Of a stretch of DNA of 64,000 nt, positions 5,615 to 21,893 are shown one piece after another. Made by a program: the position numbers and the translations under genes. The notes below the pieces were generated by a model that was given only the letters and a program-made list of their open reading frames with translations, made no database searches and was not told the origin of the DNA. This stretch comes from Caldilineaceae bacterium SB0664_bin_27. GTDB lineage: Bacteria > Chloroflexota > Anaerolineae > Caldilineales > Caldilineaceae. Positions within the stretch are counted from its first letter, which is position 1. Every line of letters begins with the position of its first letter. Where the stretch lies: positions 1 to 64,000 of the forward strand of contig VXRG01000182.1 of assembly GCA_009838625.1 (NCBI GenBank). The letters run 5' to 3'.

Positions 5615-6646
5615 ATGACCATCCTGCTGGCCCTTGCCGCCGGTCTGGCGCTCGGTTACCTCCTCGAAAGAGGTGATTTCTGCTTTCACAGCACCCTGCG
5701 CGGCCTGATCAGGCGGCCGCCGCAACTGGACCTGTTCCGCGCCTATCTGCTTACGCTGCTCATCGCCATCCCCCTCGTGCAGGGGATGATTGCCCTCGGC
5801 TGGATAACGCCGTGGGTAGCGCCCTGGGCCTGGCAGGCGAACCTCGTCGGCGGCCTCGTTTTCGGCGCTGGCATGGTGATCGCATCCACCTGCGTGACCG
5901 GCATCTTCTACAAACTCGGCCACGGTATGCTTGGCACGCTCGTCGGACTGGCAACCTGGACAATCGGTGATCTGCTCGCTTGGCGCGGACCACTCAACAC
6001 TCTGCGGATCGCATTGAATGAGAATCCTGTGGTGACGGGAGGAATGGCAACGACGCTTCTGAATCTGCTCGGCTCAACATTGGGCATTGGCTTGCTTTTG
6101 GTGTTGCTGGCCGCAGCCGCACTATTCCTCTGGCGCAGCCCCCGTCCCCAGCAGGGCGACTACTGGACCTGGCTGCCCGTTGGTGTGTCCGTTGGCCTCT
6201 TCACCAGCTTGGTCTGGCTCCTGGCCCGCGCCGGAGGCGCCAACTATACCTTCGGCACGTCACGCGTGCCCACCACGCTCTACGAATCCCTGCTGGGCGG
6301 AGGCGAGATGGGAAATCTGTGGATTCCCGTGGCACTCATCGCTCTTCTGCCCGGCTCTTTCATCGCCGCCCGCACGGCCGGCACTTTCTGGGCCAGAGGC
6401 GAAACGTCTGCCCGTTATTCACAGTTGGCCGCCGGCGGTCTGCTCATGGGCGTCGGCGCCGGCATTTCCGGCGGCTGCAACCTGGGCCACTCCCTGGTCG
6501 GCGTCCCCCTCCTCAGCCTGGGCAGCATGACCACCACCCTCGCGATGCTGCTCGGCGTTTTTCTGACCGACCGCGCCGTGGGTCTGCTGAGCCACCGGCA
6601 GCCGCAACCAGATGGAACTTCCACAGGCGCTGCAGCGCCGGGCTGA
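5615..6646 (+). CDS. YeeE/YedE-family sulfur-compound transporter
   Basis: A 343-residue polytopic membrane protein with two homologous halves. The N-terminal half has ERGDFCFHSTLRG and a GGLVFGAGMVIASTCVTG motif. The C-terminal half has GGLLMGVGAGISGGCNLG followed by HSLVGVPLLSLGSM. These paired glycine/cysteine motifs are typical of TsuA-type thiosulfate importers, where the conserved cysteines line the transport path. It lies between two DoxX genes, so uptake and membrane oxidation of a reduced sulfur compound is a reasonable inference, though not proven. Confidence 0.85.
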   Translation: MTILLALAAGLALGYLLERGDFCFHSTLRGLIRRPPQLDLFRAYLLTLLIAIPLVQGMIALGWITPWVAPWAWQANLVGGLVFGAGMVIASTCVTGIFYKLGHGMLGTLVGLATWTIGDLLAWRGPLNTLRIALNENPVVTGGMATTLLNLLGSTLGIGLLLVLLAAAALFLWRSPRPQQGDYWTWLPVGVSVGLFTSLVWLLARAGGANYTFGTSRVPTTLYESLLGGGEMGNLWIPVALIALLPGSFIAARTAGTFWARGETSARYSQLAAGGLLMGVGAGISGGCNLGHSLVGVPLLSLGSMTTTLAMLLGVFLTDRAVGLLSHRQPQPDGTSTGAAAPG

Positions 6647-6687
6647 ACAACGATGATCAAACATCACATATCAATAGGAGCATTGAC

Positions 6688-7173
6688 ATGGGTCAGGTAG
6701 AAAACAGAATGCGGCAGGCTGTCGCCATTCTACGCATTACTCTTGGAGTGATACTGGTCGTCACTTGGTTCAAAAACCTGCAGGACGGAATCTACACGGC
6801 CGACGGCATCGTCGGTCTCTTCAACTATCTCTTTAACGACAATGGCGGCGGGCCCGCTTTCTATCGGGCAATCATCAACGGCACAATACTCCAGGTGCCC
6901 GGCCTCTTCGCGGTTTTTCAGTTGGTCGGCGAGCTGCTACTGGGCCTCGGACTTCTGGTCGGCCTTTTCACGCCTCTGGCTGCCGTCGGCGCAGCACTGT
7001 TTTTCTTCAATCTGTTCCTGGCTTATCTCGGCGGCCATGAGTGGATATGGACCTATGTGCTGCTCACCGTATCGGCCCTGGTGACGGCCCTGACCCAGTC
7101 CGGTCGTGCCTGGGGTTTGGACAGCCTGCTCCTGCGGCGGCTGGGAGAACCCCCGCGCGGCCCTATCTGGTAA
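6688..7173 (+). CDS. DoxX-family membrane protein (second copy)
   Basis: A 161-residue protein with about four membrane segments. The start is the ATG at 6688, with an AATAGGAG ribosome site at 6673-6680; longer in-frame extensions upstream overlap the YeeE gene out of frame and were not used. Family pattern: RITLGVILVVTWFKNLQDGIY at the N-terminus, LVGELLLGLGLLVGLFTPLA in the middle, and a terminal RAWGLDSLL much like the VWGLDGL of the copy at 5015. The pair may form a heteromeric membrane complex. Confidence 0.8.
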   Translation: MGQVENRMRQAVAILRITLGVILVVTWFKNLQDGIYTADGIVGLFNYLFNDNGGGPAFYRAIINGTILQVPGLFAVFQLVGELLLGLGLLVGLFTPLAAVGAALFFFNLFLAYLGGHEWIWTYVLLTVSALVTALTQSGRAWGLDSLLLRRLGEPPRGPIW

Positions 7174-13500: not shown

Positions 13501-15951
13501 TCACTGCACTACCGCGTCCAGCCCGAGCGCCCCCGCCGGCGCCCGCTGAAAGAATCGCCTGTAAGCTCGCACCTCCGCCAGCAGCTCCTTCAACTCTTCC
13601 TGCAGTAACGTACGCTCGTCGCCGTCGCCTTCGCTCCCGTCCCCCTGCACTACGCGTGCGACGTCGCCCTCTTCCCACCCCTGCAATCGCAGCAGCCCCT
13701 TCTTGTCCAACCAGAGTAGACTGCAGCGAATGATCTTCTCTGTTACACCGATGCGGGCCGCCAGCCTGTCAATCGGAAGCCTGCTGTCCTGTGCTGCTCC
13801 GCCCCCGGACCCATTCGCGCTGGGTTGCATCGACCACTTTGCCATCCCTGCTACCTGCTTCAATACAGCGTCCGGCTGCGCTTCTGCCGTGTCGCGGCCG
13901 ATCAGATATATTTCGGACGGCGCCACCGTCTCCACCAGCCAGCGCAGCAGCTCCGGCGACGGCGGACTGCTCCACAGAACCAGCGGCAGTCCCGTCTTCG
14001 CCCGGGCCGCCTCCAGCCGCGACCGGTAGGGAACGCGGCCCAAGCGAGTACCCTCCGCAAACCAGACTGCGTTGTCAACAGTTGGCAGATCGGCTGCAGA
14101 CACACGTTCGCGGCGCAAGTCTTGGAGAACGCACTCTCGCGCCTGCGCGTCAACGAAGCCCGCCGCCTCCACTTCTTCCGCCGACCGCACCGCCTCCATC
14201 GTCAACTGCGACGACCGCTCCCCGCGATACTCGTTTACGCCCAGCGTATAGGCAATGTCTAAGGCGCCGCCCGGCAGGTCCACATCCGCGCTCCGCCACC
14301 AGACCGCGGTCTGTCTCCTCTCCTCCCTATCCTGCAACAGCAGCCTCCGGTGGGCGCCGTCCCGCCCAATCCGCCGGTCCTGGATCACCGTCAGGCCCCG
14401 GCTTACAAATCTGGGCTGCGGGTTGCCGTTGCCGAAGGGTGCCAGCCGTTCTATCTCCTCCGCTAGCGACAGGCTAACCTCGGAGAAGGGCAGCTCCGCG
14501 TCAATGTGCAGACCTTCCGGCCCTGCATCAATTCTGTGCTTCTCCACCTGCCGGCTCAACTCACGTCGAAAACGGTCAATGTTGGCGGCGTCCAGCGTCA
14601 CACCAGCCGCGCCGGGATGCCCGCCATGGTGCATCAGCAGCTCCCCACACCCCGCGATCGAGGCGCCGATATCCACGCCGCTGGTGCTGCGGGCGCTCCC
14701 CCGCGCCGGCTCACCGGGCGGGCTGCACAGTAGTACTGTCGGCCTGTGGTACTCCTCAACCAGACGCGCCGCAACGATGCCGATGATCCCGGCATGCCAG
14801 TTGGGATTTGCCACGACAATCGCATTGAAGTCGAGCAGTACCGGCTCCCGCTCCAGCATGTCGAACGCCGTCTGCGTAATCTGGCTGGTCAGCAGCCGCC
14901 TCTCATTGTTCAGCCGCTCCATCTGCGCCGCCAACTGCCCGGCGCGGATCGCGTCTTCCGTCGTCAGCAACTCCACCGCCACAGTCGCATCATCCAACCG
15001 TCCCAACGCGTTCATGCGCGGACCGATCTGAAAACCGATTGCCTGCGCGTCAACGCTTTCCGGCGACAGCCGGGCACTCTCCATTAACGCCTTCAGACCG
15101 ATCCGGTCCGTCCGCCGCAGCCTGTCCAACCCGATCTGAAGCAGGTAACGCGTGTCGTGCTGCTGCTCGGCCACGTCGGCAACAATGCCCAGTGCAACAA
15201 GGTCCAGGAACTGGGCCGCTCCGTCTGGGTCACCAGCCAGCTCGTACAGCCGTTGCACCAATTTGTAGGCCACGCCCACACCGGGCAGCGTGCGCAGCGG
15301 ATCATCGGCGCGCAGGAACTTGGGGTTGACTATCGCGTCCGCCCGCCGCACGCTCTGCTCGCCGGCAACTTCGCTCGGTTCACCACATGGGGGTTCCGCG
15401 CCCGGCTCCACGTCCTCGAACTCAGCCGGCAAATCATGGTGGTCCGTAACGACGACCGTCAGCCCGGCATCCTTGGCAATGCCAATCCCCTCCCCATCGC
15501 CGATGCCCGTGTCGCACGTCAGCAGCACATGCGGCTTAAAGCTCGCATCCTTGAGCAACTCCTCCAGCTTCGAGGGCTTGATGCCGTGACCTTCACTGAA
15601 GCGGTCCGGCACGTGAAAGCGCACCCGCTGCGTCCCCGCCAGCTCCTGCAGCGCCGCCACCAGCAGCGTCGTGCTCGTCTGGCCGTCCACATCGAAGTCC
15701 CCCCAGACGAGAAAGTTCCTGCCTTGCCTGACGCCATCGATCAACGTTTCCGCCGCTCTATCCAAACCGACCAGCGCACTAGGGGGCGCCGGCGCGTACG
15801 CCCTGCTGTCCAGAAAAGGCAGCGCCTTCTCCGCAGTTTCGATCCCCCGCTGCGCCAGCAACCGCGCCACCAGCGGATGCCCGCCCACCGCAGCCCGCAG
15901 CGCCGGCGAAGGTTCAATTTGAGGTCTCAGGATCCAGGGTTGGGGAGGCAT
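13501..15951 (-). CDS. recJ: Single-stranded-DNA exonuclease RecJ
   Basis: An 816-residue DHH-family 5'-3' exonuclease. Motif I is DFDVDG (85-90) and the DHH motif is at residues 170-172. The DHHA1 region has HHGGHPGAAGV, and an OB-fold domain follows. About 200 extra C-terminal residues end in a winged-helix-like RIGVTEKIIRCSLLWLDKKG and a helical tail, longer than the E. coli enzyme. The start is ATG at 15951. The gene is the last of four collinear genes with nucleic-acid functions and begins 37 bases after the TOPRIM-like gene. Confidence 0.92.
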   Translation of the reverse strand: MPPQPWILRPQIEPSPALRAAVGGHPLVARLLAQRGIETAEKALPFLDSRAYAPAPPSALVGLDRAAETLIDGVRQGRNFLVWGDFDVDGQTSTTLLVAALQELAGTQRVRFHVPDRFSEGHGIKPSKLEELLKDASFKPHVLLTCDTGIGDGEGIGIAKDAGLTVVVTDHHDLPAEFEDVEPGAEPPCGEPSEVAGEQSVRRADAIVNPKFLRADDPLRTLPGVGVAYKLVQRLYELAGDPDGAAQFLDLVALGIVADVAEQQHDTRYLLQIGLDRLRRTDRIGLKALMESARLSPESVDAQAIGFQIGPRMNALGRLDDATVAVELLTTEDAIRAGQLAAQMERLNNERRLLTSQITQTAFDMLEREPVLLDFNAIVVANPNWHAGIIGIVAARLVEEYHRPTVLLCSPPGEPARGSARSTSGVDIGASIAGCGELLMHHGGHPGAAGVTLDAANIDRFRRELSRQVEKHRIDAGPEGLHIDAELPFSEVSLSLAEEIERLAPFGNGNPQPRFVSRGLTVIQDRRIGRDGAHRRLLLQDREERRQTAVWWRSADVDLPGGALDIAYTLGVNEYRGERSSQLTMEAVRSAEEVEAAGFVDAQARECVLQDLRRERVSAADLPTVDNAVWFAEGTRLGRVPYRSRLEAARAKTGLPLVLWSSPPSPELLRWLVETVAPSEIYLIGRDTAEAQPDAVLKQVAGMAKWSMQPSANGSGGGAAQDSRLPIDRLAARIGVTEKIIRCSLLWLDKKGLLRLQGWEEGDVARVVQGDGSEGDGDERTLLQEELKELLAEVRAYRRFFQRAPAGALGLDAVVQ

Positions 15952-15988: not shown

Positions 15989-16633
15989 TCAGAGGTACCA
16001 CTTGTATTCCTTAATCGCGTTGCTGATCTCTTCTTCCAGAGCCGCAAAAGCGCTAAGCTGTCTCAACGGCGAAAAATCATCAATAAACTCTGTGACGAGG
16101 CGAGCGTGTTTTGCCACGCGAAAGCTCCTCTGCCGCCGTCTGTTGAGGTCGCAGGCTTGTCTGAGTAAGTCGTTCAAGACACTTTTTGGATCGGCCAATC
16201 TTTCAAGACGGCTGACTACAGGCATTTCTAACCGTCCTGCATATCCCTTGTTCCCAGCTGCTGCCTTGATAGCAGCTTCATCAACCAATAGCCATGCTTC
16301 CTGCATCCTTATAGGGATTACGCAAACATACTTTGGTGACAATTCCTCTGGCAAGCAAGCTACCGCCTCATCAATCTCTTGTACCCGACTCTCGCGGGAC
16401 TCTCTTTCGGCGTCCCGATGAACGAAAAGGAGATCACAGGGGTAGTAAACTAGCCCCAGTCTGATTCGGTCCACCAGTCTTGTTCTGTCAGGAAGGGAAA
16501 GCACACTGAAATCTGCCCATGCAGGCTGAATAGGTCGACCTACCCCATTCTCTATGAGCAGCCAATTCAAAATTGGAATCAAGGCTCTGTCGCTACTGCC
16601 ATCTGTGACTAACGTATACCGAAAACCATCCAT
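15989..16633 (-). CDS. TOPRIM-like/DUF4276-like partner of ATPase
   Basis: A 214-residue protein. The N-terminus LVTDGSSDRALIPILNWLL resembles the glutamate/aspartate-G-x-x-D motif that opens TOPRIM domains (D11, D15). LLFVHRDAERES near residue 70 could carry the second metal-binding acidic motif. IPIRMQEAWLLVDEAAIKAAAG is shared with DUF4276-like proteins. The ATG lies two bases after the ATPase stop (TGA-GG-ATG), with the end of the ATPase gene supplying the ribosome site. ATPase-plus-TOPRIM pairs occur in phage-defence systems such as PARIS and in OLD proteins; this pair matches the plan but not clearly any named system. Catalytic residues are inferred. Confidence 0.65.
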   Translation of the reverse strand: MDGFRYTLVTDGSSDRALIPILNWLLIENGVGRPIQPAWADFSVLSLPDRTRLVDRIRLGLVYYPCDLLFVHRDAERESRESRVQEIDEAVACLPEELSPKYVCVIPIRMQEAWLLVDEAAIKAAAGNKGYAGRLEMPVVSRLERLADPKSVLNDLLRQACDLNRRRQRSFRVAKHARLVTEFIDDFSPLRQLSAFAALEEEISNAIKEYKWYL

Positions 16634-16635
16634 CC

Positions 16636-18069
16636 TCAGTACAAATCCGTATTCTCGATTGGCAACCCGAGTTGACCGCCTCTTTCCGGGATCGGACTCA
16701 AATATGGCAGCAGGCGTCCCATTATCACAGGACTGTCTTCGGGCGAAGCTTTGCTGCGCCAAGTGTTCGGACGCCATCTGAACGCGGCTTTCTGAAAGCG
16801 CTTGCTGTTGTGGATTGCCTGTTCTGTCTCGGCGATCAGCAAGCTATCGGGAGGAATCAGGTTTACGACCCCGGGGGAATGAGTATTGACAATCACTTGG
16901 CGCAATGGGTTATCAGCAGCGACGGGCTTGTGGACGTTGACCGCTATGTCTTGAAGCAACTCCAACATGGCCGAAATGCGGCCAGGATGGATTCCGTTTT
17001 CCGGCTCCTCCAGGCACATGACGCCAAGGGCTGTGGGATCAAGCGCCAAAACTGCTAGTGCCAGAAATCGTAATGTGCCGTCGGACAAAGAACGGGCGGG
17101 ATAGGTCGTTCCATTTTTGTCCTGTACTTGCAGGGTCAGCAACTGCCTCTTCTCGTCTCGGTCAATACTGACCTCGTAGACATCATCGATCAGGTCGGAC
17201 AACCTCAAAGCGATCTGTTCATATACCCAAGTGTCACCACTGTCAGAATTCTCCTGGTTCACAGTATTCGCCAATGAATAGAGCGTAGCAGGCAAGTGGG
17301 ACCCATCAGGCCGCATTCCCGGGGGTGTCATGAACTCGTCAGGTTTGCGCAGCGACGACGGCTCCAATTGGAGCAGTCGCCAAGACTGCATTTCCCTCCG
17401 TGCAAGCAGAGCCGTAGGACTCTCAAGCGCGTTGGCGGTTGACAGTACTGTGCGAGGCAGGTTTTTCGCCGAGAAAGACTGGGGACGTCCGCTGCTGCCG
17501 CCGTCTTGGTGCAAACGGACGACTCTTTGCCCCTCGTGCTCGACGGTTGAAATGAATGGCGCTGCCCTACGACCCTTCACAACTGAATTCCGCCAATCCT
17601 TAGCGCTATGTTGAAACCTGAGGTGTCTAGACGCCTCGCCCAATTTGATGTGTTCCAAGCTCTCTTGCATTAGCTCAAAGGAGCCAGAATACGGCAGACC
17701 CCCGTCAACCTGATAGGCCAGTTCCAAGGAGTATCGCAGAAAAGTGAACGTGGCCTTTGCTTCCTGGCCCAAGTCGTCTACACCTGTGTCCGGAACAATC
17801 ATCTCCGCAGTGAAAGAAATGCTGTCCGCGTATTCGCTGCCAATGCGATGGAATAGACTCTGAACAGATGATCCCTTATCCTCGTCGGCCCGAATCGACG
17901 CAGCGGCATCCACGAAAGTATCGCTGGCAAGCCTGCCCAGAAACTGTATCGCATCAAACAGATTGGACTTTCCCGTCCCGTTCGCGCCTGCGATACAAGT
18001 AAAGGGGCCAAAGCGGACATCGACGTCGACCAGGTTTTTGAAGCCGGACACTTGTAGTCTCGTTAACAT
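16636..18069 (-). CDS. RecF/OLD-like AAA_21-type ATPase
   Basis: A 477-residue SMC/ABC-type ATPase without a long coiled coil. Walker A is GANGTGKSN (about 28-36), after the family start LQVSGFKNLVDVDVRFGPF. The C-terminal half has the ABC-like signature SLSDGTLRFL, Walker B VMCLEEPENGIHP and the H-loop NTHSPGVV. It starts at ATG 18069 after an ACGGAGG ribosome site. The coding sequence is visibly richer in A/T than the recJ and nuclease genes around it. With its downstream TOPRIM-like partner it forms a two-gene unit with its own predicted promoter. Confidence 0.8.
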   Translation of the reverse strand: MLTRLQVSGFKNLVDVDVRFGPFTCIAGANGTGKSNLFDAIQFLGRLASDTFVDAAASIRADEDKGSSVQSLFHRIGSEYADSISFTAEMIVPDTGVDDLGQEAKATFTFLRYSLELAYQVDGGLPYSGSFELMQESLEHIKLGEASRHLRFQHSAKDWRNSVVKGRRAAPFISTVEHEGQRVVRLHQDGGSSGRPQSFSAKNLPRTVLSTANALESPTALLARREMQSWRLLQLEPSSLRKPDEFMTPPGMRPDGSHLPATLYSLANTVNQENSDSGDTWVYEQIALRLSDLIDDVYEVSIDRDEKRQLLTLQVQDKNGTTYPARSLSDGTLRFLALAVLALDPTALGVMCLEEPENGIHPGRISAMLELLQDIAVNVHKPVAADNPLRQVIVNTHSPGVVNLIPPDSLLIAETEQAIHNSKRFQKAAFRWRPNTWRSKASPEDSPVIMGRLLPYLSPIPERGGQLGLPIENTDLY

Positions 18070-18137
18070 TGGGCCTCCGTACGTCTCTAAATCAACCCTC
18101 CGCGCTAATCGGAAACCTGCCCAGAGGAATGTTTCGA

Positions 18138-18166
18138 GACATAAATATGCTCACCTGCATGCTCAA
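18138..18166 (-). promoter_or_regulatory. Candidate promoter of the ATPase/TOPRIM-like pair
   Basis: On the minus strand, TTGAGC (18161-18166) and TATGTC (18138-18143) are spaced by 17 bases, about 70 bases upstream of the ATPase ATG. It would let the two-gene unit be expressed apart from the nuclease gene upstream. The rest of the 179-base gap (18070-18248) holds no gene. Confidence 0.4.
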
Positions 18167-18248
18167 CTGTTAAACTGACAGTCTTACCGCCGGCGTCCAA
18201 TACAAGAAGAAAACTCTCACCTTCATCTTGAGTTTCGGCGAATTCCAC

Positions 18249-19145
18249 CTAGAAAGCCAGCTCCTGTATCTCTTCCAGCGAAAACTCCAGCGCCCTCTCC
18301 AGGTCCTCCTCCGCAAACTCCTCCTCGTCGTACTCGTCCAGGTCACCCGCAGCGATGCCCCGGTCGCAGCGCGAACGGTAGATGCAGTAGCCGCAAAATC
18401 TCTTCCGATTCTCCTCCGTATCGGCCACCTTGGGAAAGTCCCTCTCCCTATCCCCATTGAGAATCTCGTTCAACAACTGCTCGAGCCTGGCACGATTCGC
18501 CGCATGACGTTCGCTGTTGTAGCCGAAAGAGACTGCCTCAGCCGGCGCCGCTGTAAACCAGTAGCGCATCTCCACCTGCTCAGGTGCCAACGGACCCCAC
18601 GGCAGGCCCGCGCTCGCCTCCACCAGCACGTAAGGATACACGAGCGTCTGCATCCGCTGCTGTAAGTTCGAACGCCGCGTCACCCGCTTGTTCGTCTTCC
18701 AGTCGAGAACTACCGCCCGGCGGTCTGCTCCCTCTCCGCCCACTGCGATCAAATCGTAGCGTGCAGCCAGCCGGAACTGGCCTGCTTCCACCGCCAATGG
18801 CGCGCTCAACTCGCGCTCCACTTCAACAACCTCAGTTGGCAGATCGGCCGGCCGGTGGCGCAGATAACTCTCAAACCATTCATCCAGAGGATATTCCAAA
18901 CCTTCCGCCAGCGGATCGGTCGGCATAGACGCTTCCGCCCGTTCGACCAGTTGATGAAACTGCCAGCCCAATCTCAGCAGCTCTTCGTGCTCGTCGTACG
19001 GCGCGGCCTCCAGCGCCGGCCACTTGAGCTGCTCCACATATGCCAGCCAGAATCGACGCGGGCAGCTCACATAGGATTGCAGACTCGACTGGCTGAAAGC
19101 GAAGGTCGAGGGGAGATTCAAGGGCACGGTGAACAGTTCTCTCAA
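18249..19145 (-). CDS. PD-(D/E)XK nuclease with 4Fe-4S cysteines (Cas4/RecB-like)
   Basis: A 298-residue nuclease-like protein. Cys28 in YVSCPRRF plus Cys251, Cys254 and Cys260 at the C-terminus (CGYCIYRSRC) match the four iron-sulfur ligands of Cas4/AddB-type nucleases. The active-site set is D131, D148-x-K150 (VVLDWKTNK) and the QxxxY motif Q166-Y170. An acidic tail follows. The TTG at 19145 is used; GTG at 19127 is an alternative that keeps all motifs. No cas genes are nearby, so a Cas4 role is not supported. It is the first of four collinear nucleic-acid genes. Confidence 0.8.
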   Translation of the reverse strand: MRELFTVPLNLPSTFAFSQSSLQSYVSCPRRFWLAYVEQLKWPALEAAPYDEHEELLRLGWQFHQLVERAEASMPTDPLAEGLEYPLDEWFESYLRHRPADLPTEVVEVERELSAPLAVEAGQFRLAARYDLIAVGGEGADRRAVVLDWKTNKRVTRRSNLQQRMQTLVYPYVLVEASAGLPWGPLAPEQVEMRYWFTAAPAEAVSFGYNSERHAANRARLEQLLNEILNGDRERDFPKVADTEENRKRFCGYCIYRSRCDRGIAAGDLDEYDEEEFAEEDLERALEFSLEEIQELAF

Positions 19146-21177: not shown

Positions 21178-21322
21178 GTATTGCAATGGCAACGAGCGCT
21201 TGCAGCCACTCACAAACGATCCGCATGAGTTCTGCCTTCGGCAGCAACTGATTCCGTTTCACGAAGAAAGAAGACGCAGTCCGTGTGTTGAAAGATGGAG
21301 CTTTCAAGGGAAGATTAGTTCA

Positions 21323-21580
21323 ATGGCTACCAAAGATCGCAATAGCATAGAGTTAGCGAAAGTGGTCTCCCGTGATCCCGATGTCCATAGCGGAGATTTG
21401 GTATTCGCCGGCACGCGAGTTCCAGTCCAAACGCTGGTGGACTATCTCACAGGAGGGGCTTCAATCGGTGAATTCTTGGAGTCCTTTCCCACAGTCGAAC
21501 GCTGGCAAGTTGAATCTTATCTTGACTACTCCCCCGAGGCGATAGATCACTTGCGGACAGAAAATGCGAGTCCTGCTTGA
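21323..21580 (+). CDS. DUF433-family antitoxin
   Basis: An 85-residue protein with the DUF433 core: SRDPDVHSGDLVFAGTRVPV followed by a helix pair (TLVDYLTGGASIGEFLESFP) and SYLDYSPEAIDHL. Family members are small winged-helix antitoxins that usually precede a PIN-like DUF5615 toxin, as here. The ATG at 21323 is chosen over longer in-frame openings because the conserved domain starts just after it. Its end overlaps the toxin start by 17 bases. The base composition is richer in A/T than that of the flanking catabolic genes. Confidence 0.82.
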   Translation: MATKDRNSIELAKVVSRDPDVHSGDLVFAGTRVPVQTLVDYLTGGASIGEFLESFPTVERWQVESYLDYSPEAIDHLRTENASPA

Positions 21581-21893
21581 CGAGGACATTGACATTCACT
21601 TCAGGAAGCATTTTCCCGGTGGGTTGACAGTAGAGACTGTCGAGTACCGGGGCTGGAAGGGTCTCAAGAATGGTGCCCTATTGCGTGTCGCCCAAAACCA
21701 TTTTGATGTTCTTGTGACACTGGATAACAACATTCCGAATCAGCAGCCGCTGCAACAATTCGACATTGCGGTTGTGGTTCTACGCCCGTCGCGTTCACGC
21801 TTGAAGGAACTACTGGAGTTGATTCCTGAGATCCGGCGAATTCTTGAGGGAATTCGGCCAGGTCGTGTGGAACGGGTATTTCCTCCCGGGTAA
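21564..21893 (+). CDS. DUF5615 PIN-like toxin
   Basis: A 109-residue protein opening with MRVLLDEDIDIHFRKHFPG, the acidic motif of DUF5615 PIN-like domains. A second acidic site lies in DVLVTLDNNIPNQQ. Proteins of this family are putative ribonuclease toxins, by analogy with VapC. It overlaps the DUF433 gene, the usual translational coupling of a toxin-antitoxin pair. The function is inferred from family pairing. Confidence 0.8.
   Translation: MRVLLDEDIDIHFRKHFPGGLTVETVEYRGWKGLKNGALLRVAQNHFDVLVTLDNNIPNQQPLQQFDIAVVVLRPSRSRLKELLELIPEIRRILEGIRPGRVERVFPPG

Follow-up and report, generated by a model that had tools for sequence, protein, structure and literature searches.

Two adjacent genes in a 64,000-nucleotide stretch of a Caldilineaceae bacterium contig (the window) are, judged by profile matches, a copy of HEC-01, a candidate anti-phage family already catalogued in PADLOC. 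The HEC-01A profile covers residues 1–438 of the 477-residue ATPase (A; E = 3.5e-101, 337 bits), and the HEC-01B profile matches the partner protein (B) encoded 2 bp downstream (E = 1.2e-24, 85 bits). With HEC-01 already catalogued, the pair is not the possible new defence system proposed in the initial annotation. PMC12988326 gives HEC as Hma-embedded candidate, citing a guilt-by-embedding preprint (Payne et al. 2024), and states that antiviral activity was seen for some HECs, with HEC-06 named. No report of anti-phage activity for HEC-01 itself was found in the literature searched. We favor, with moderate confidence and by analogy to characterized systems, a reading in which the pair is a HEC-01-type immune or abortive module, where A would sense infection and restrain B, and B would be a toxic Toprim-like nuclease. 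The unit and its surroundings are as follows.

13501..15921, minus strand: recJ (DHH, DHHA1, RecJ_OB), flanking context outside the unit
15989..16633, minus strand: HEC-01B (B), 214 aa ORF, DUF4276-like, proposed Toprim-like nuclease effector
16292..16300, minus strand: E112-A-W114, conserved DUF4276-type E-x-W motif of B
16406..16420, minus strand: H72-R-D74-A-E76, end of strand 3 of B, HxDx[DE] signature
16589..16603, minus strand: D11-G-S-S-D15, acidic motif after strand 1 of B (in relatives, position 11 is D or E)
16636..18069, minus strand: HEC-01A (A), 477 aa ORF, ABC/OLD-type ATPase (AAA_21), proposed sensor and restraint
16639..16869, minus strand: C-terminal tail of A (residues 401–477), its most variable part
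16873..17088, minus strand: ABC signature LSDGT (328–332), Walker B CLEEPENG (352–359), and H-loop NTHSP (395–399) of A
17962..17988, minus strand: Walker A GANGTGKSN of A (residues 28–36)
18070..18248, minus strand: gap between the PDDEXK gene and A, with an N-terminally truncated DUF2283-like remnant (18070–18251)
18249..19145, minus strand: PDDEXK_1 nuclease gene (PF12705, 101.8 bits), flanking context outside the unit

ORF reading of the window places both genes on the minus strand at 15989–18069. The initial annotation's description of an ATPase followed two bases later by a 214-residue partner was confirmed, with both frames present here and adjacent in every full-length relative examined. 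The pair is also A/T-richer than its surroundings, as had been noted (GC of 0.50–0.56 versus 0.61–0.67 in the flanking coding sequence). Its supposed own promoter fared less well: the match at 18144–18173 is at chance level, with 2 such sites found and 1.3 ± 1.1 expected. Median dN/dS values for the two genes are 0.07 and 0.12, and by this measure both are under purifying selection. Longer forms of the DUF2283-like gene in the upstream gap are kept in relatives, including a copy in G011 that lies behind a DUF4258-like fragment (DUF4258 assigned by eye). Elsewhere in the window, at 21320–21893 on the plus strand, a DUF433-like antitoxin gene is followed by a DUF5615/PIN-like toxin gene (both assigned by eye).

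The larger protein is a clear ABC-type ATPase, with a match to AAA_21 of 98.7 bits against a cut-off of 27. The Walker A motif, SLSDG signature, and NTHSP H-loop described earlier are all present, and an alignment of 10 homologues shows invariance at G28, N30, G33–N36, L328–G331, C352, E354–G359, and N395–P399. No profile match indicated a Toprim domain in A, which ends about 80 residues past the H-loop. Across all pairs compared, the divergence of its C-terminal 77 residues follows that of B best (Spearman 0.80), making this tail a candidate docking site for B. The predicted structure of A was poor (pLDDT 53) and was set aside.

In all full-length relatives examined, the gene immediately upstream of B encodes an A-type ATPase; two relatives of B (L077 and L080) showed only fragments. 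Genomes with a complete B and an upstream A belong to the Chloroflexota, Acidobacteriota, Cyanobacteria, and Verrucomicrobia and to Proteobacteria-type lineages. The boundary between the genes is usually a short overlap or gap, suggesting co-translation. Of 400 genomes of the phylum, 20 have close relatives of the pair, and the closest match to B of the window (L002) is 88% identical. Relatives of B were found in no viral contig or phage genome searched; the plasmid collection contained a single relative, carried by a cyanobacterial replicon of 1.2 Mb. On a deltaproteobacterial contig (L004), the pair sits in a defence-like neighbourhood, between two TIR + FGE-sulfatase proteins (1612–2874 and 5676–6842) and near a reverse transcriptase fragment. 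In an endosymbiont contig assigned to Candidatus Thiodictyon intracellulare (L012), A and B are both broken, as one would expect where a genome is reduced and freed from phage pressure. A distant second HEC-01 pair, with B about 22–24% identical, is found in four members of this genus (L046, L047, L048, and L050 in G005, G007, G013, and G012). It occupies another recurring site, adjoining conserved metabolic genes (dehydrogenase/corrinoid-type by eye).

The pair occupies a fixed chromosomal site. The PDDEXK_1 gene and recJ are neighbours in nearly all of the 46 family genomes searched, and in several relatives they are separated by an empty gap of 32 bp. Those of the 17 genus members studied that carry the pair have it between the PD-(D/E)XK gene and recJ, and two genomes of a second genus carry it at the same junction. 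Other family members hold different genes here: PIN toxins with antitoxin-like partners (VapBC-like) in G025, G043, and G031, an AbiEii/DUF6036-like nucleotidyltransferase in G035, a YhgA-like protein in G033, and DUF2283 genes or remnants in G011 and G005. Given this variety of small genes, the junction takes up small accessory modules, and "hotspot" would be a purely descriptive term for it. The locus does not lie in a large defence island.

Comparisons within the genus show exchange of alleles of the pair independently of its flanks. Between the window and G007, flanking genes are 90%–95% identical and recJ 92%–95%, versus 64%–71% for B, and silent divergence is 0.20 for recJ, 0.52 for A, and 0.74 for B. 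The reverse was seen between G006 and G016, with silent divergence of 0.18 for recJ, 0.08 for A, and 0.02 for B. Divergence of B does not track that of recJ in the genus (rho = 0.14, from 36 non-independent pairs).

Partial loss within the genus falls on B. The pair is intact in 10 of the 17 genomes and absent from three (G005, G011, and G015). Single stop codons cut B at three different positions in G019, G009, and G017, all of which have a full frame for A. The remaining genome (G012; L055 on G012:C40) retains the full 477-codon frame of A, but unrelated DNA of about 200 bp replaces B. Because the stop codons differ and two of the three assemblies consist of a single contig, assembly error is an unlikely source of them. 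A broken A beside an intact B was seen nowhere in the genus; if the four disabling events fell by gene length, the probability that none struck A is about 0.009 (a post hoc calculation). A counter-example exists outside the genus, in a Nostoc MAG (L006) with a frameshifted A and an intact B. From this pattern, B would seem to be the costly member of the pair; alternatively, A may have a further role. An immune module that is costly to carry would be expected to show such exchange, loss, and disarming at one fixed spot.

The same pattern would suit an addiction or toxin-antitoxin-like module that is chiefly self-maintaining, with B as a growth-inhibiting nuclease, A as its ATP-dependent antitoxin, and phage defence incidental. 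Loss of B with A kept in four genomes, never the reverse in the genus, is in line with such a module, as are the VapBC-like pairs at the junction in relatives. We nevertheless consider it unlikely, as A, a large ABC ATPase, has every catalytic motif conserved without exception, as infection sensors do, and the architecturally similar PARIS system is not a simple toxin-antitoxin, deletion of its ATPase gene ariA being non-toxic (PMC9122126).

Less probable still is a housekeeping accessory of DNA repair, in which A, like RecF or SMC proteins, would partner recJ and the neighbouring PD-(D/E)XK nuclease. In its favor are the purifying selection on A and B, the four genomes in which A persists without B, and the constant placement of the pair between two repair-type genes across one genus and in two genomes of another. 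Against it, the flanking genes form an empty junction in other relatives, relatives of the pair from other phyla have no recJ beside them, the distribution is patchy, and alleles are swapped.

Profile evidence places B near DUF4276 (PF14103), a term not found in the literature searched. Its own match scores 20.7 bits, under the Pfam gathering cut-off of 30.2, yet 10 of 10 aligned homologues match the family (best E = 4e-5), so B is a divergent relative and not a formal member. Profile comparison connects B to a remote HEC-01B group whose motifs read EGxTD and HADAD (99%, 1e-18), and that group to DUF4276 members with full acidic motifs (79%–85%). Comparison of B with DUF4435 and OLD-Toprim sets by hhalign gave no link, these sets being thin and mostly single sequences from the phylum, and a profile search of PDB sequences with B gave no match. 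More DUF4276 matches occur in the window's own genome (L096, L100, and L104 on G000:C25, C121, and C65), two of them over the cut-off and one a fragment.

The DGSSD motif near the start of B and the HRDAE motif are both present, as initially described. Among 22 diverse aligned homologues, H72, D74, E112, and W114 do not vary and D15 hardly does; relatives nearly always have an acidic residue at positions 11 and 76. The initial annotation had taken HRDAE as a sign of a variant or inactive protein. With the His at the first-Asp position invariant in all 22 homologues, followed by the Asp and the third acid, the motif is instead a family-wide signature and not decay.

An AlphaFold2 model of B (pLDDT 88.9, pTM 0.86) has four strands alternating with helices. 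D/E11-G-x-x-D15 follows strand 1, H72-x-D74-x-E76 closes strand 3, and E112-x-W114 follows strand 4. Toprim proteins are expected to show this arrangement of strands, helices, and acidic motifs. The Toprim pattern comprises an acid after strand 1 and a DxD ending strand 3; B has the former (D/E11), but its strand 3 carries HxDx[DE] and not DxDx[DE]. A Foldseek search of the model against the PDB returned no match at E ≤ 0.001, and all hits had E > 0.05. VIA aligned the model with AriB of PARIS (8ux9_A) over 171 residues (Z 6.3, rmsd 5.7) and with the Toprim region of Xcc OLD (6njv) over 162 residues (Z 6.1, rmsd 4.7). Both are among the longest VIA alignments, with Z scores level with those of generic Rossmann-like folds. 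From the model and the motifs, B likely adopts a Toprim-like nuclease fold, with no library match decisive. It is quite improbable that B is a degenerate, non-catalytic DUF4276 adaptor regulating A, with A itself the effector, since the replacement of the usual first Asp of DxDxE by His and the want of a confident Toprim match are set against an active-site-like pattern of conservation in B and an A without a nuclease domain.

Known defence systems share parts of this plan. HEC-01 has both genes in identical order, and no difference excludes membership; in Caldilineaceae, the copy described here is tied to one chromosomal site. PARIS likewise pairs an ABC/OLD-type ATPase with a separate Toprim effector (a probable one in B). 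The AriA profile matches A weakly (99 bits), and the AriB overlap of the B model was given above. Unlike AriB, B has no DUF4435 (PF14491) or AriB profile match, carries an HxDxE motif, and is about 210 aa long, compared with 306 for the AriB chain. OLD and GajA of Gabija share the OLD-type ABC ATPase and the Toprim-type chemistry, for which B is a candidate. OLD carries ATPase and Toprim in one chain; here the ATPase and the proposed effector are separate proteins, and no UvrD-like helicase (GajB) adjoins the pair as in Gabija, its neighbours being PDDEXK_1 and recJ. The ATPases of AbiL (AbiLi/AbiLii) and MADS are related to A (AbiLi 60 bits; mad3 82 bits in PADLOC), but B matches the partner family of neither. 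The MAD3 NCBIfam profile scores 150.9 bits on A, under its cut-off of 420, and no other MADS genes are nearby. The window's own genome also encodes an ATPase-DUF4435 fusion, a PARIS-like single gene (L108 on G000:C103). For the plan of an ATPase with a TOPRIM/DUF4276 partner, the PARIS-like two-gene architecture and defence-like evolution stood up, and the Toprim fold is likely rather than proven.

In PARIS, a hexamer of the ABC ATPase keeps the Toprim tRNase AriB sequestered until binding of a phage trigger (PMC12409363), and the restraint and trigger proposed here for HEC-01 are drawn from that analogy. The harmless loss of ariA in PARIS (PMC9122126) counts against this reading as well. A single mRNA would yield A and then B. 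Without a Toprim domain of its own, A would probably form an ATP-dependent oligomer that binds B and keeps it inactive, perhaps through its variable C-terminal tail. A phage-derived trigger would alter A so that B is released or activated. With its Toprim-like metal site (D/E11, D15, and H72-x-D74-x-E76), B would then cut nucleic acid, either host RNA such as tRNA or DNA, and growth would stop. More tentatively, HEC-01B may represent an effector class of its own, in which a strictly conserved His replaces the first Asp of a Toprim-like metal site (HxDx[DE]) and the nuclease chemistry or target is altered. This class would occupy an accessory site next to recJ that is shared across the family, where alleles are exchanged whole and the effector is the first component to be lost.

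HEC-01 is already in defence catalogues. What the genus offers is a natural experiment, in which a single chromosomal site is found with the pair intact, with the ATPase alone, with swapped alleles, or empty. It leads to the prediction that B would be the costly effector, A its restraint, and the tail of A their point of contact, and the conserved HxDx[DE] site of B provides clear residues for testing.
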